NCBI RefSeq assembly: GCF_000179595.2 | Contig: NZ_JH556658.1 | Location: 176,808 to 240,807, forward strand | DNA length: 64,000 nucleotides | Reading direction: 5' to 3' | Origin: Acetivibrio cellulolyticus CD2 | GTDB taxonomy: Bacteria > Bacillota > Clostridia > Acetivibrionales > Acetivibrionaceae | Shown: piece after piece, positions 26,453 through 35,232 of the stretch | How the letters are laid out: each line of letters starts with the position of its first letter | Numbering within the stretch: position 1 is the stretch's first letter | Made by a program: the position numbers and the translations under genes | The notes under the pieces: model-generated | Database searches by the model: none | Told to the model about the DNA's origin: nothing | The model's input: only the letters and a program-made list of their open reading frames with translations

Positions 26453-28546
<2,094 letters not shown>

Positions 28547-28813: not shown

Positions 28814-30352
28814 ATGAAATTTTTTGACAAATCAAAATTCTTTATTGCAGGTGTTGTTACAACGCTCTTAGTAACTACAACGATAACGGCATATACTTCA
28901 ACATTAAAGAAAACTATTACAGTTGATTACAATGATATCAAGATCAACATTGACGGAAAACTAATCCAGCCTGTAGATGGATATGGAAAAAGAGTTGATC
29001 CATTTATTTATGAAGGGACAACTTATTTGCCAGTAAGGGCTGTTAGTCAGGCTCTTGGAAAAAGTGTAACATGGGATGGAAATACCAAGACTGTAAAAAT
29101 ATCATCCGGCCAAATTGCAAAGACTAATGCAACATTAAGTATGTGGATTATGCCAAATTCTGCATACCCCGAAAATGATTTAATGGAAATTGCCAAACCT
29201 TATTTGGGCAATAATTCTAATATTGAACTAAATGTTACTTTAGTGGACTGGGGAAGTGCATGGACAAAAATAACAGCAGCAGCAACATCAGGTGATGCAC
29301 CGGATATTACACAGCTTGGGAATACATGGGTAGGAGCGATTTCTTATATGGGAGCCTTGGCTGATCTTACAGGAAAAATAAATGAGGATGAATTTCTTCC
29401 TCAAACACTTAAATATTCTAAAATGGCTGGAAGCTCAAAAGTGACTTCTGTGCCTTGGTTTGCAGAAACAAGAGCTTTGTTTTATCGTAAAGATGCATGT
29501 CAAAAGGTAGGAGTTGACCCTAAAAAAGATTTTGCTACATGGGATTCGTTTAAAGCAGCACTAAAAAAACTGAATAATGTCGAAATAAATGGCAAGAAAT
29601 TGCCTGCTCTCGGTATGGCCGGCAAAAATGACTGGAATGTTGTACATAACTTTGCTCCATGGATTTTTAGTGCGGGCGGGAGTTTTTTAAATTCAAATAA
29701 TACCAAAGGATTACTTAATAGCCAGGAAGTATTCAAGGGTGTTAAATTTTATTCTGAGTTGGCATATGAAGGATTGATTGATTGGGCTGCACTTGATACG
29801 AATACAGCAGATATTGAAACGGCATTTGCAAATGGTAAATATGCAACTTCTATCATAGGTCCATGGAATATTCAAACATTAGAAGATAACAAAATAAATA
29901 ATGGTAATAAACTTGTTGATAATGTTGGAGTTGCATTGTTTCCGGCAGGACCTAATGGTAGAAAAGTATTTTTAGGCGGATCAACACTTTCGGTTTTTGA
30001 AAGTTCAAAAAACAAAACTGAAGCTATAAGACTTATTAATTTCCTTACAAGTAAACAGGCACAAATTGATTACTGTAAAAAGACAGGAAACCTTCCGGTT
30101 GTGAAAGAAGCATATGAAGATACTTGGATAACAGGAAATAGCATGAGAAAGGTTTTTAAGGATCAAATGAGTTATGCTGTTGCTTATCCAACTATACCCT
30201 ATTGGGGTCCAGTAGAAATATATGCGCAAGAAGGACTAAGCAAAGTTTGGGATAATGTTTTAGGAGTTAATGGCAAGTATGACCCAAATAAAACTATGAA
30301 TGCTCTAAAGGAAGCAAATGAACGTATAAACGTAGTATTAGACTCATATTAG
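28814..30352 (+). CDS. Stalk-domain (Cu-amine-oxidase N-like) fused to family 1 solute-binding protein, copy 1
   Basis: A 512-residue exported protein. An N-terminal signal anchor (FIAGVVTTLLVTTTITAY) has no lipobox Cys. A copper-amine-oxidase-N/stalk-like domain follows at about 33-97 (FIYEGTTYLPVRAVSQALGK), then an extracellular sugar-type solute-binding protein domain from about residue 108 (SAWTKITAAATSGDAPDIT; YATSIIGPWNI). ABC solute-binding proteins of Gram-positives are normally lipoproteins beside permease genes, and neither holds here. It is highly similar throughout to the next gene. It may act as a wall-bound ligand reservoir or sensor partner instead of a transporter subunit (inference). 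The ribosome site is GGAGG. Confidence 0.85.
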   Translation: MKFFDKSKFFIAGVVTTLLVTTTITAYTSTLKKTITVDYNDIKINIDGKLIQPVDGYGKRVDPFIYEGTTYLPVRAVSQALGKSVTWDGNTKTVKISSGQIAKTNATLSMWIMPNSAYPENDLMEIAKPYLGNNSNIELNVTLVDWGSAWTKITAAATSGDAPDITQLGNTWVGAISYMGALADLTGKINEDEFLPQTLKYSKMAGSSKVTSVPWFAETRALFYRKDACQKVGVDPKKDFATWDSFKAALKKLNNVEINGKKLPALGMAGKNDWNVVHNFAPWIFSAGGSFLNSNNTKGLLNSQEVFKGVKFYSELAYEGLIDWAALDTNTADIETAFANGKYATSIIGPWNIQTLEDNKINNGNKLVDNVGVALFPAGPNGRKVFLGGSTLSVFESSKNKTEAIRLINFLTSKQAQIDYCKKTGNLPVVKEAYEDTWITGNSMRKVFKDQMSYAVAYPTIPYWGPVEIYAQEGLSKVWDNVLGVNGKYDPNKTMNALKEANERINVVLDSY

Positions 30353-30520
30353 TATTTTCAGTATGCGTAAGTATTTTATCGGAAAAATACAACACTAATA
30401 ATGAGTTTATACTTTATACCTAGAATTTGGTATGATATACTATTTATTATTGTGAAAATTCGACGGTTAATTGTGATTGTGTTAGTATAATTCACAAAAG
30501 TAAAAAATAGGGGGTACAAA

Positions 30521-32149
30521 ATGGATTTCTTTGGCAAAGCAAAAATCTTTATTGCAGGTGCAATTTCGGCAACTTTAATAACTACTACGATAACAGCTTA
30601 TACTTCGACAATGAGGAAAAATATCACAGTTGATTATAGCAATATTAAGATTAATATTGACGGAGAGCAAATTGAGCCTAAGGATGGAAATGGCAATAGT
30701 GTTGAGCCGTTTATTTATGATGGAACTACATACCTGCCTGTAAGAGCTGTTAGTGAGTCACTCGGGAAATATGTTGATTGGGATGGTGATTCGAAAACTG
30801 TGTATATTTCATCAGTTCCGACTAAAATTAATAGAAATGAAAAAGAGCTTAATATGTGGGTTATGTACAATTCAGCATGGCCTGATGCAGATTTATTAGA
30901 AGTTGCTAAACCATATTTAGCAGCTAATCCTGATGTAGGATTGAATCTTACTGTTATAGATTGGGGGAGTGCATGGACTAAACTAACAGCTGCAGCAGTA
31001 TCAGGGGAAGGACCGGATATAACTCAGATTGGGACTACCTGGGTTGGAGCAATTTCTTACATGGATGTTTTGACAGACTTTTCAGGAAGAATAAAGGAAG
31101 ATGACTTCCTACCTCAGACATTGAGTACAGCCAGAATGGAAGGAAGCACACAAATGACTGCTGTACCTTGGTTTGTTGAAACAAGAGCATTGTTTTATAG
31201 AAAAGATGCATGTGAAAAGGCTGGAGTCGACCCGGCAAAGGATTTTGAAACATGGGACTCTTTCAAGGCGGCACTTAAAAAATTAAACAATGTCGTGATA
31301 GACGGTAAAAAATTATCCTCTCTTGGTATGCCTGGGAAAAATGACTGGAATGTTGTACACAACTTTGCACCATGGGTTTATGGTGCAGGAGGCAGTTTCT
31401 TAAATTCGGACTATAGCAAGTCAACTCTTAGCAGCCAGGAAACTTACGAAGGTATTAAGTTTTATTCTGAGTTGGCCACTGAAGGTTTAATGGACATGAG
31501 CGCACTTGAAAAGAATACATCAGATGTTGAAATGGAATTTGCAAATGGTGAATATGCAACTTCTATTATAGGGCCATGGAATATAAGTACTCTTGAAGAT
31601 AATAAAAAGAAATTTGAAGTTAACCCTGCTGAAGGAAGTGACCTTATAGATAAAGTTGGAGTTGCAATGCTTCCAGCTGGACCTAAAGAAAGATGTGGAT
31701 TTTTGGGAGGAAGTAATTTATCGGTTTTTAAGAGTTCAAAGTATCAGGCAGAAGCTATCGGTTTTGTCAAATACCTTACAGGAACAAAAGCACAAATTGA
31801 TTATTGTAAAAAAACAGGAAACCTTCCGACAGTTAAAGCAGCATATGAAGATCCATGGATAACAGAAAATAGTATGAGAAAAGTATTTAAACAACAAATG
31901 AGTTATACAAAGGCTTACCCTTCTTTACCTGAATGGGGACCAATAGAAACCTATATACAACAGGGTTTAAGTAAAGTTTGGGATAACGTTACGGAATACA
32001 ATGGGAATTATAGCGAAGAAAGAACCATGAAAGTATTAAAGGAGACTGATGAAACAATAAACATATTATTAAGTCAACCTTATGGTGATGCTGATATAGG
32101 AATTGATTATGATGATAGTGTAGAAATTGATAATGATAATTTACGCTGA
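30521..32149 (+). CDS. Stalk-domain fused solute-binding protein, copy 2
   Basis: A 542-residue paralogue of the preceding gene with the same order: uncleaved-looking signal anchor, stalk-like domain (FIYDGTTYLPVRAVSESLGK) and family 1 solute-binding domain (SAWTKLTAAAVSGEGPDIT). It differs by an acidic C-terminal tail (YDDSVEIDNDN). No transporter genes adjoin. The 168-base gap between the copies has no clear terminator, so both may share a transcript. Tandem duplication followed by divergence is the simplest origin. The ligand is unknown, perhaps oligosaccharides, given the setting. Confidence 0.85.
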   Translation: MDFFGKAKIFIAGAISATLITTTITAYTSTMRKNITVDYSNIKINIDGEQIEPKDGNGNSVEPFIYDGTTYLPVRAVSESLGKYVDWDGDSKTVYISSVPTKINRNEKELNMWVMYNSAWPDADLLEVAKPYLAANPDVGLNLTVIDWGSAWTKLTAAAVSGEGPDITQIGTTWVGAISYMDVLTDFSGRIKEDDFLPQTLSTARMEGSTQMTAVPWFVETRALFYRKDACEKAGVDPAKDFETWDSFKAALKKLNNVVIDGKKLSSLGMPGKNDWNVVHNFAPWVYGAGGSFLNSDYSKSTLSSQETYEGIKFYSELATEGLMDMSALEKNTSDVEMEFANGEYATSIIGPWNISTLEDNKKKFEVNPAEGSDLIDKVGVAMLPAGPKERCGFLGGSNLSVFKSSKYQAEAIGFVKYLTGTKAQIDYCKKTGNLPTVKAAYEDPWITENSMRKVFKQQMSYTKAYPSLPEWGPIETYIQQGLSKVWDNVTEYNGNYSEERTMKVLKETDETINILLSQPYGDADIGIDYDDSVEIDNDNLR

Positions 32150-33434: not shown

Positions 33435-35060
33435 TTACTTAAGAACATTTACGGTTATAGTTTTACTGCTTGTTGAACCAAATTCATTTCTAAGCTCCCA
33501 CCTGTAAGTGTATGTTCCTGGAACAGTTGCTTTAAATGTAACTCTCCTCGCTTGAGGACGGGGGGTTTTATCTACAAGATCAAACTTTGTATATTCTTTG
33601 CCGTTTTGGTATAAAATCAGTGAGGTTCCATTGTTACCACTCTTTAAATAAAAATGTATAGTGTATTGATTACCTACATGAACCTTGTAAAAATCCGAGC
33701 TTATACGGACTTCGCCAGGAACGCTGCTTGCTTTTTTTGTGACAGTAGTTGGGATTGGGGAAACTTTAGTAGATTTTACAGGTGTAGCAACTGCATTTGT
33801 ATTAATAGGTCTGGTAGCAGGTACAATACTATCAGAGGGTTCGAGTACAAGTATTGCAGATGTTTTTGTTGGTGTGCTGTCCACAGAAGGAGTAGATGTA
33901 ATTTCGGGTTCAACAGTATTTATAGCTTCTGCAATCAAATTATCAGATGTATTTTTTTGTGTGTCTGTAGCATTTTTGTTATAACTTGGTACGGGAGTGA
34001 CCTCAGTATTGTAAGCGGCTACTGGCTTATCGTTATTAATAACCAGCATACATCCCTGATATATTGCATAAAAGATTATTATACTGGTCACTGCGCAAGC
34101 TGCCACTATATATTTCATATTCGCATTCTTTTTTTGTATCCTATAACTTCCAAATTTGATTTGTTCACCAACTTTGCTGGTTTTACTGAGTTTAATGGTT
34201 AGAAATTCACCCTGAAGTGTAAAAAGAATTGCTTGATCATTGTTAACTTCAAGTATAACTCCAATATTTTCACTATAGTCATTTCTTAAGTTTACATTTT
34301 TTAAATAACTGCATAACAGCTTAAGATTATTCTTTAGAATCAAGGTGAGAGCTATAATGTATTTTTTATGTTTATAAAAGATTCGTTTATCTACCTTTAT
34401 ACTATCAGTAAAGTCTTCTAAAGAGAGAGTCTTATCTTTAGCAACTTTTTGGAAGAGATCATTATCATTATATAACTTCCTGGCGATTCTTACACATATT
34501 CCAATATTTTGCTTTTCATCAGGAGACAAATTAGGTAATTCGCCAAGTTTTATTCCATACTCCCATAGATTCATTTTGAATTGTGATATATCCTTTGTGG
34601 ATTCATAATTACAATAAAGGTAATATTTCTCTTCATCAATCTGGTCCAGAGTGTGATTAGTGTTTCCTTCTCTTATATAACTTAGCACCCATTCCTTTAT
34701 GATTTGTTCTGAAAATAAGAGAAAATCCTTATCTTTATCAGGATTAAACAAATCAATTGAATGATCAAAAGCATCCAATCCAATATCAAATTCAGGACTG
34801 TTTTTAGGAACTGTAGACTTGCCTAAAGAATGTGAAATTGTTTCTAAAATAAAACCTTTATGCCTATCTGTAAAATCCTTTCTTGCAATAGCATCACCTT
34901 GTTTTATCCTATCAATAGAATCTAAATATTCATTTCTGACAACCTTTTTTGTTCCAGGGAACTTTAAAAGATCACGTTTAGTAACCTTTTTATTTTTAAC
35001 AAATTCTAAAAGTTCCTCTCTGGAAAACTTCATTGTCTTAAAAAACTCTAAAATTTTCAT
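33435..35060 (-). CDS. Single-chain SigI-RsgI fusion: sigma factor plus membrane anti-sigma factor
   Basis: A 541-residue protein. Residues about 48-131 match SigI region 2 (SPEFDIGLDAFDHSIDLF, then FSEQIIKEWVLSYIR). Residues 166-256 match the SigI C-terminal domain (YGIKLGELPNLSPDEK; KVDKRIFYKHKKYIIA). After about ten residues, 264-305 match the RsgI N-terminal anti-sigma domain (IGVILEVNNDQAILFTLQGE). One TM helix (about 316-340), a Pro/Thr/Ser-rich linker and a C-terminal Ig-like domain (about 458-541) follow. In B. subtilis and C. thermocellum these are two proteins from neighbouring genes. The DINPS-type motif where RsgI cleaves itself is absent. The SigI recognition helix (usually VSRKTIERNRKYI) is altered. 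The start is ATG 35060 behind TTGGGGAG. Confidence 0.9.
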   Translation of the reverse strand: MKILEFFKTMKFSREELLEFVKNKKVTKRDLLKFPGTKKVVRNEYLDSIDRIKQGDAIARKDFTDRHKGFILETISHSLGKSTVPKNSPEFDIGLDAFDHSIDLFNPDKDKDFLLFSEQIIKEWVLSYIREGNTNHTLDQIDEEKYYLYCNYESTKDISQFKMNLWEYGIKLGELPNLSPDEKQNIGICVRIARKLYNDNDLFQKVAKDKTLSLEDFTDSIKVDKRIFYKHKKYIIALTLILKNNLKLLCSYLKNVNLRNDYSENIGVILEVNNDQAILFTLQGEFLTIKLSKTSKVGEQIKFGSYRIQKKNANMKYIVAACAVTSIIIFYAIYQGCMLVINNDKPVAAYNTEVTPVPSYNKNATDTQKNTSDNLIAEAINTVEPEITSTPSVDSTPTKTSAILVLEPSDSIVPATRPINTNAVATPVKSTKVSPIPTTVTKKASSVPGEVRISSDFYKVHVGNQYTIHFYLKSGNNGTSLILYQNGKEYTKFDLVDKTPRPQARRVTFKATVPGTYTYRWELRNEFGSTSSKTITVNVLK

Positions 35061-35232
35061 GATAATCGGCTCCCCAATAAGCAAAGTAAAATTAATTAAG
35101 AATATAAAACTTTACAGCTAATTATATCAGATTTTATTATGAAATAGAAATATATTTGTTTTTATTGCTTGAAAATCAAAGTCATGCAATTAATAGATAC
35201 AAAAATGGAGAATTTGTGAATCTAAAGAATAA

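Follow-up and report, generated by a model that had tools for sequence, protein, structure and literature searches.

The sigma factors SigI1 and SigI6 of Acetivibrio (Clostridium) thermocellum and the anti-sigma factor RsgI1 supply, in sigI-rsgI gene order, the domains SigI_N, SigI_C, and RsgI_N, followed by a transmembrane (TM) helix and an outer module of the polysaccharide-binding type. We studied a gene of Acetivibrio cellulolyticus CD2 with the same domains in the same order. It lies on the minus strand of a window of 64,000 nucleotides, which is the whole stretch of DNA that we analyzed (contig NZ_JH556658.1, positions 176,808 to 240,807 of the forward strand). Unlike the C. thermocellum pairs, this gene encodes a single polypeptide, its SigI part has lost key promoter contacts, it lacks the self-cleaving periplasmic domain RsgI_M with its DINPS motif, and it has no sigma-I promoter.

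Two other kinds of proteins resemble this fusion in part. The extracytoplasmic function (ECF) groups ECF48, ECF52, ECF53, and some of ECF36 contain fusions of a sigma factor, an anti-sigma domain, and a TM helix, and ECF52 has an outer carbohydrate-binding domain (PMC8999054, PMC5826349). The actinobacterial ECF52 (SCO4117), ECF48, and ECF53 proteins thus carry all three parts in one chain, as does the fusion, and ECF52 also shares a Pro-rich linker and a carbohydrate-binding module. However, these proteins combine an ECF sigma factor with a zinc-finger anti-sigma domain, both from other families, and SCO4117 is reported to be a working activator, whereas the sigma part of the fusion has lost key contacts. 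PhyR, of the alphaproteobacterial general stress response, is described as having a sigma-like domain that acts on an anti-sigma factor and in which the promoter-contact regions are degenerate (PMC8103513). It differs from the fusion in that its ECF-type domain sits on a response regulator and is opened by phosphorylation and in that its partner, NepR, is not part of the same chain. The degeneracy of PhyR is said to extend to the binding of core RNA polymerase.

Domain order of the fused protein

Read on the minus strand, positions 33435 to 35060 form a single frame of 541 residues with only a terminal stop; the plus-strand frame across the same span holds many stops. The original prediction, which left the strand unstated, was that SigI and RsgI are fused in one frame. 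The profile matches follow in that order, and the interval 34260 to 34300, where a stop might have separated two genes, is read through on the minus strand. The features are as follows.

33435-35060, minus strand: fusion gene, 541 codons plus stop, with uninterrupted translation; one of 15 fused loci (13 intact) that occur in 6 of 58 genomes of the order
34656-34934, minus strand: SigI_N-like (sigma-2 type) domain, residues ~43-135, from the NCBIfam SigI match (43-259) and the AlphaFold2 (AF2) model against 8i23_F (Foldseek E value, 3.5e-8)
34671-34715, minus strand: counterpart of the -10 recognition helix, residues 116-130, from the alignment with 60 separate SigIs (residue roles from PMC10575876)
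34290-34598, minus strand: SigI_C-like domain, residues ~155-257, matching SigI1C 6ivu_B in sequence (E value, 1.1e-11) and fold (TMt, 0.71; Foldseek E value, 0.032)
34500-34523, minus strand: counterpart of the minor-groove motif KHRxS, residues 180-187, from the alignment
34353-34433, minus strand: altered helix-turn-helix region, residues 210-236 (KVDKRIFYKHKKYI), from the alignment
34263-34304, minus strand: short sigma/anti-sigma linker, residues 253-266, with spacing counted across the 15 fused proteins
34152-34268, minus strand: RsgI_N anti-sigma domain, residues 265-303 (Pfam PF12791; E value, 1.3e-9), with a fold match to 6ivs_A (TMt, 0.74; Foldseek E value, 0.12)
34035-34121, minus strand: single TM helix with a VAA motif, residues ~314-342, from a hydropathy window (AF2 helix, 313-344)
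33732-34034, minus strand: Pro/Thr/Ser-rich extracytoplasmic linker of ~100 residues, residues ~343-443, from the sequence
33438-33731, minus strand: Ig-like domain, residues ~444-541, probably resembling the N-terminal domain of chitinase A (AF2 mean predicted local distance difference test [pLDDT], 85.3; Foldseek E value, ~3e-5)
35070-35075, minus strand: ribosome-binding site GGGGAG preceding the ATG, from the sequence
35121-35126, minus strand: possible sigma-A -10 box TATAAT, a weak assignment from the sequence

SigI profiles matched the window protein at residues 43 to 259 (NF006173; E value, 2e-45) and 52 to 253 (TIGR02895; E value, 6.2e-31), and the RsgI_N match, which exceeds the cutoff of that profile, precedes the one TM helix. 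All 13 fusion family members searched matched the SigI profile. Because all ten SigI matches of the window protein fall under the curated NCBIfam cutoffs (e.g., 155.1 versus 287 bits and 107.8 versus 185 bits), the protein is, by its sequence, SigI-like and not a SigI equivalog. The PDB sequences of SigI1, SigI6, SigI1C, and RsgI1N align collinearly with it, and a Pfam scan found neither a zinc-finger anti-sigma domain nor a receiver domain. The AF2 model of residues 1 to 345, built on an alignment of six rows, has a mean pLDDT of 72.5 and a predicted template modeling score (pTM) of 0.49. Its match to 8i23_F (SigI1 in the open complex) is good in E value, but the whole-chain root mean square deviation is 23.4; the model backs the individual domain folds and not the arrangement of the domains.

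Hydropathy, the sequence itself, and the AF2 and Foldseek results bear out the predicted TM helix, linker, and Ig-like exterior. Across the fused proteins, the distance from Y252 of SigI to G267 of RsgI_N is nearly fixed (15 residues in 12 of 15 and 14 in the other 3), and that from the end of the TM helix to the Ig domain is variable (93 to 175 residues in 13 proteins). The DINPS-type motif was correctly predicted to be missing from the window protein, which also lacks RsgI_M. None of the 15 fused proteins has a DINPS-like motif, versus 10 of the 12 separate RsgIs of the A. cellulolyticus genome, and RsgI_M was matched in none of 13 fused members at an E value of 0.01. An X-Ala-Ala motif lies within the TM region of 12 of the 15; a motif of this type in RsgI TM helices is reported to be read by ClpXP (PMC12203970).

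The best Foldseek matches of the outer Ig-like domain are chitinase A chains of Serratia marcescens, at 17 to 20% identity, with CARDB and Ig domains scoring close behind. Pfam ChitinaseA_N matched only weakly (E value, 0.13, under the cutoff). The model suggests that the outer domain is probably like the N-terminal domain of chitinase A; we infer which part of the chitinase aligns. In genome G047, the Ig-like domain stands at the head of secreted proteins, interpreted here as GH18 enzymes and one polysaccharide deacetylase. An open frame of 2,385 residues in genome G031 (L148:1-7157) has the Ig-like domain three times, followed later by repeats resembling RHS/YD.

Promoter-contact residues and promoters

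The DNA-touching residues of SigI6 are listed in PMC10575876, in which E74 is reported to contact A-12. According to the same source, mutating the conserved residues that bind C-14, G-13, and A-11 nearly abolished activity, except for D80A, and H171 could not be replaced by Y, F, N, S, or A without abolishing activity, while K and R left some. We compared these positions in 60 separate and 15 fused SigIs. The alignment came from 84 listed SigI-like open reading frames (ORFs), of which nine were dropped (eight end-cut pieces of fused genes and the truncated fusion L078). The 60 separate SigIs are those in the loci sampled, not every SigI of those genomes, and some are near-identical; the 15 fused ones include two interrupted copies from Pseudobacteroides cellulosolvens.

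E74 and R98 are kept in all 60 separate SigIs and in no fused one. H171 (59 of 60) and R97 (47 of 60) are likewise absent from all 15 fused proteins, and R104, present in 57 of 60, is kept in one. The replacements recur within the fused set: Y stands for E74 in 13 proteins, W for R98 in 11, and D or E for H171 in 12. In the window protein, the -10 contacts E74, R97, R98, and D101 have become H100, E123, W124, and S127, with R104 kept as R130, and the minor-groove residues K170, H171, R172, and S174 have become D181, E182, K183, and N185. The original prediction had argued from the recognition helix. The altered sequence KVDKRIFYKHKKYI is present as quoted, but it makes a weak argument since the helix varies among separate SigIs anyway. 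The suggestion that the sigma domain has lost DNA binding and serves as a decoy or sensor is nevertheless supported, on the different ground that E74, R98, and H171 are gone from all 15 fused sequences.

Among columns with at least 75% conservation, mean retention in the fused proteins was 0.19 for the 11 promoter-contact columns versus 0.58 for the 59 others (P = 4.6e-4 [by a one-sided Mann-Whitney test with identity scoring; the columns are not independent]). The contrast was smaller when conservative swaps were counted as kept (0.41 versus 0.70; P = 0.006). It persisted without R221 (P = 7.9e-4) and at a 90% threshold (7 versus 30 columns, 0.14 versus 0.61; P = 0.003). Contact retention is 0.73 to 0.91 in the four most diverged separate SigIs and falls no lower than 0.55 in any of the 60, compared with 0 to 0.45 in the fused proteins. 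The net charge of SigI_N drops from a mean of +3.0 in separate SigIs to between -6 and +1 in fused ones; that of SigI_C is little changed overall. The fold columns G29, E64, F72, I76, F87, I95, L154, I159, L164, P169, I230, L235, and Y241 are kept in all 15. On this comparison of sequences, the SigI fold is retained and constrained while key -10 and -35 contact residues are lost, and the SigI-like domain very probably does not recognize promoters.

A fold kept without its promoter contacts could also belong to a membrane-held competitor for RNA polymerase, a mimic that binds the core enzyme at the beta-prime coiled coil and the beta flap and cannot open promoters. The core-fold residues of both SigI_N and SigI_C are kept, and SigI_C is reported to bind the beta flap and RsgI through overlapping surfaces (PMC10575876). 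However, RsgI_N in cis should hide that SigI_C surface, and the conserved SigI_N residues Y41, P43, and S66 are gone in 15 of 15, so that we consider a polymerase competitor improbable.

Promoters of the fused and separate genes differ as well. Of 58 separate sigI genes, 33 have a sigma-I-type motif (AAA-N12-16-CGWA) upstream (8.88 expected from 100 Markov resamplings), versus 1 of 15 fused genes (1.84 expected). This count omits two separate genes with fewer than 80 bases upstream, and two fused genes had fewer than 250 bases. In the A. cellulolyticus genome, 9 of the 12 separate sigI genes have the motif (2.13 expected); no sigma-I-type promoter lies upstream of the window fusion gene. TATAAT occurs upstream of all three own-genus orthologues, at differing distances, and proves little because it is also upstream of 33 of the 60 separate sigI genes.

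Distribution, ancestry, and selection

The domain order of the window protein recurs in other genomes. Searching 58 genomes of the order at an E value of 1e-60, a threshold that fusions as distant as L078 would escape, we found the 15 fused loci in 6 genomes: one locus in each of three out of three genomes of the own genus and four in each of three out of three genomes of a second genus. The latter includes P. cellulosolvens DSM 2933; the two other named records are metagenome-assembled genomes. The 13 intact ORFs encode 501 to 568 residues, and the 12 other intact members are 28 to 62% identical to the window protein (~60% in the two other own-genus genomes and ~30% in the other-genus paralogues). 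In ten further matches listed by this search, the span of SigI and RsgI_N contains a stop, meaning two genes in one frame. Among 391 genomes drawn from the class (E value, 1e-50), no further fusion was found, a weak absence with three candidates scored per genome; Pseudobacteroides-type genomes were not among the matches of this draw. A draw of 398 genomes of the phylum (E value, 1e-30; again three candidates scored per genome) gave one different fusion, in G759, not counting a frame of 413 residues that surrounds a SigI match in G437.

The G759 frame (L153:1483-3618) has 711 residues. Its full SigI, which retains the main promoter contacts, is fused to a full RsgI that has both DINPS and RsgI_M. 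An out-of-frame TGA lies at its SigI/RsgI junction, and no second case of this type was found among 40 relatives (E value, 1e-60). The frame could reflect a recent or technical frame change or could be a truly tethered SigI.

In a tree with the 60 separate SigIs and a reference, all 15 fused SigI domains form one clade (100/99). Twelve sigma-I/RsgI pairs have been reported for A. cellulolyticus in PMC3413522, the accessible text of which mentions no SigI-RsgI fusion. In the 6.16-Mb genome we found 14 RsgI_N matches, namely, 12 beside separate sigI genes, the fusion, and one in a 61-residue frame. A separate pair with the outer domain of the fusion is in G047 (L152:2448-4683). Like the fusion, its RsgI combines RsgI_N, a TM helix, and a Pro/Thr linker with this Ig-like domain; unlike in the fusion, sigI and rsgI are overlapping genes, DINPS and RsgI_M are present, and the SigI keeps KHKDS and R98 (R97 is W). 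A position of this SigI as sister of the fused clade is compatible with the data (approximately unbiased test, P = 0.41), but it is the sole sister in only 5 of 200 bootstrap trees tallied. The pair is thus a plausible picture of the state before fusion; the tree neither shows nor excludes its SigI as sister.

A second type of fusion occurs in G001 (L078:4378-5673) and G002 (L131:1489-2730), where the RsgI retains RsgI_M and is fused to a SigI_C domain alone. Both fusions have lost the sigma-2 part and, by eye, have Asn in place of H171. In A. cellulolyticus, a full sigI and a full rsgI lie as overlapping genes (L142:3552-5985) near the same pflA-like gene as the second fusion type. Because this type has neither the sigma-2 part nor H171, loss of contacts and fusion to RsgI seem, from the sequences, to have come together twice.

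Selection on the fused genes was estimated from 10 pairs by the Nei-Gojobori method. The ratio of nonsynonymous to synonymous rates (omega, dN/dS) was 0.04 to 0.16 for the SigI domains where computable and 0.22 to 0.55 for the linker. The synonymous rate (dS) was saturated in many cells and exceeded 3 in some, leaving omega defined in 7 of 10 pairs for SigI_N and 4 of 10 for SigI_C. Where measurable, then, the SigI part is under purifying selection as judged from codon changes. Such values, together with 13 of 15 loci intact in six genomes and conserved neighbors (compared between the window and G001), speak against an artifact or a decaying pseudogene, that is, two genes joined by error or a relic free of selection. 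Two of the four P. cellulosolvens copies are in fact interrupted, one in the linker and one just past the TM helix. A frame error between two genes is ruled out by the 13 intact fused loci, and a relic is disfavored by dN/dS, though dS is often saturated; we regard this explanation as very improbable overall.

The two interrupted P. cellulosolvens genes stand in tandem (L124:4941-8264) and adjoin a separate SigI/RsgI pair, the RsgI of which has, by reading, PA14-like repeats. G017 (L069) likewise has two fused genes in tandem, both intact, next to a nearly identical SigI. Near the fusion gene in the window, positions 26453 to 28546 encode a multifunctional cellulosomal enzyme with the order GH11, CBM6, dockerin, and polysaccharide deacetylase, and positions 28814 to 32149 encode a tandem pair of paralogous extracellular solute-binding proteins, both with a domain of the copper amine oxidase N1 type at the N terminus.

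A possible SigI mimic at the membrane

We tentatively favor, at a little under an even chance, the explanation that the protein mimics SigI while anchored in the membrane, carries its anti-sigma domain in cis, and acts as a partner-switching decoy rather than as a sigma factor awaiting release. At rest, the SigI_C-like domain and RsgI_N would cap each other at the membrane, held by the 14- to 15-residue spacing. When the chitinase A-like outer domain engages polysaccharide, the cap would open or be cut, and the freed sigma mimic could then titrate the RsgI_N domains of separate RsgI proteins, releasing true SigI factors. The protein would thus act by protein binding and not by transcription. 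Titration of an anti-sigma factor by a degenerate sigma domain is an established device, PhyR being described as acting on NepR (PMC8103513).

Several points weigh against this explanation. Some contacts persist in the fused proteins: D101 in 6 of 15 (58 of 60 separate SigIs) and K170 in 6 of 15, plus R in 3 (57 of 60 separate). At the major-groove position R215 (R226 of the window protein), all 15 fused and 51 of 60 separate sequences have R or K. R221, present in all 60 separate SigIs, is K in 10 of 15 fused proteins, but SigI6 itself has K there. K stands at R97 in six and at R104 in five of the fused proteins, and one member has K at H171, a swap that leaves SigI6 some activity. The losses also extend beyond DNA contacts, because the conserved non-contact columns Y41, P43, S66, I100, and T216 (the last kept in 55 of 60 separate SigIs) are gone in all 15. 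At a pTM of 0.49, the model gives no readable packing of SigI against RsgI_N. The signal would have to cross the membrane without RsgI_M. That the mimic retains its partner-binding face is suggested solely by kept residues such as I230, L235, and Y241, and its trans partner is putative, proposed by analogy with PhyR and NepR.

The persisting basic residues, at R215 and in part of the family at several other contacts, could instead belong to a genuine tethered sigma factor that has a new specificity for promoters and is released by intramembrane proteolysis, as proposed for ECF52. The identical domain order of ECF52 and the X-Ala-Ala motif in the TM region of 12 of 15 proteins fit such a protein. 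E74, R98, and H171 are, however, absent throughout and mostly replaced by aromatic or acidic residues, and the charge of SigI_N falls. There is no sigma-I-type promoter for autoregulation, and RsgI_M is missing from 13 of 13 members. ClpXP degrading the protein from the TM motif would presumably also continue through RsgI_N and reach the sigma domain. The residue and promoter counts thus disfavor a working tethered sigma factor, one of the two alternatives originally proposed, and we think it rather unlikely.

The roles of the two halves may also be the reverse. As a plugged anti-sigma factor, the protein would use RsgI_N to inhibit one or more separate SigIs in trans, with the SigI-like domain masking RsgI_N in cis until a signal arrives. 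The fixed spacing suits a cis plug, and in 6 of 10 pairs RsgI_N exceeds the five other segments compared in identity. However, RsgI is described as specific for its cognate SigI (PMC12203970), the trans target is putative, and RsgI_N is detectable at an E value of 0.01 in only 9 of 13 members. A plugged anti-sigma factor differs from the decoy only in which half acts; we hold it to be possible, at about one chance in five.

Returning to the decoy, sigma/anti-sigma fusion (in ECF52) and sigma mimicry (in PhyR) are each known, and their combination in SigI is apparently new. We found no report of a SigI-RsgI fusion in the literature on SigI/RsgI or tethered sigma factors, a search of accessible text with supplementary tables and most subscription papers outside its scope. 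The novelty claimed originally stands for SigI within that literature and not for the architecture at large, as fusions of sigma, anti-sigma, TM, and carbohydrate-binding parts were already known from ECF52. The chances seem to us evenly balanced that a transcriptionally silent sigma factor with its own anti-sigma domain, anchored in the membrane under a chitin-type sensor and controlling other sigma/anti-sigma pairs by mimicry, is a new signaling class.

Profile-based annotation would tend to label the fusion SigI or RsgI, and it would go uncounted in tallies of SigI/RsgI pairs. The fusion offers a compact single-chain sigma/anti-sigma module for study and would be a test case for a sigma factor turned regulator once freed from DNA binding and for cross talk among paralogous pairs; the four fused paralogues in Pseudobacteroides represent an expansion. 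If the decoy explanation is true, sigma mimicry would be new to the SigI family, and its tethering to an outer sensor within a single chain would be new altogether. The decoy would add a hidden layer to the SigI/RsgI network that tunes cellulosome genes, in which a surface receptor with a sigma look-alike competes for partners.

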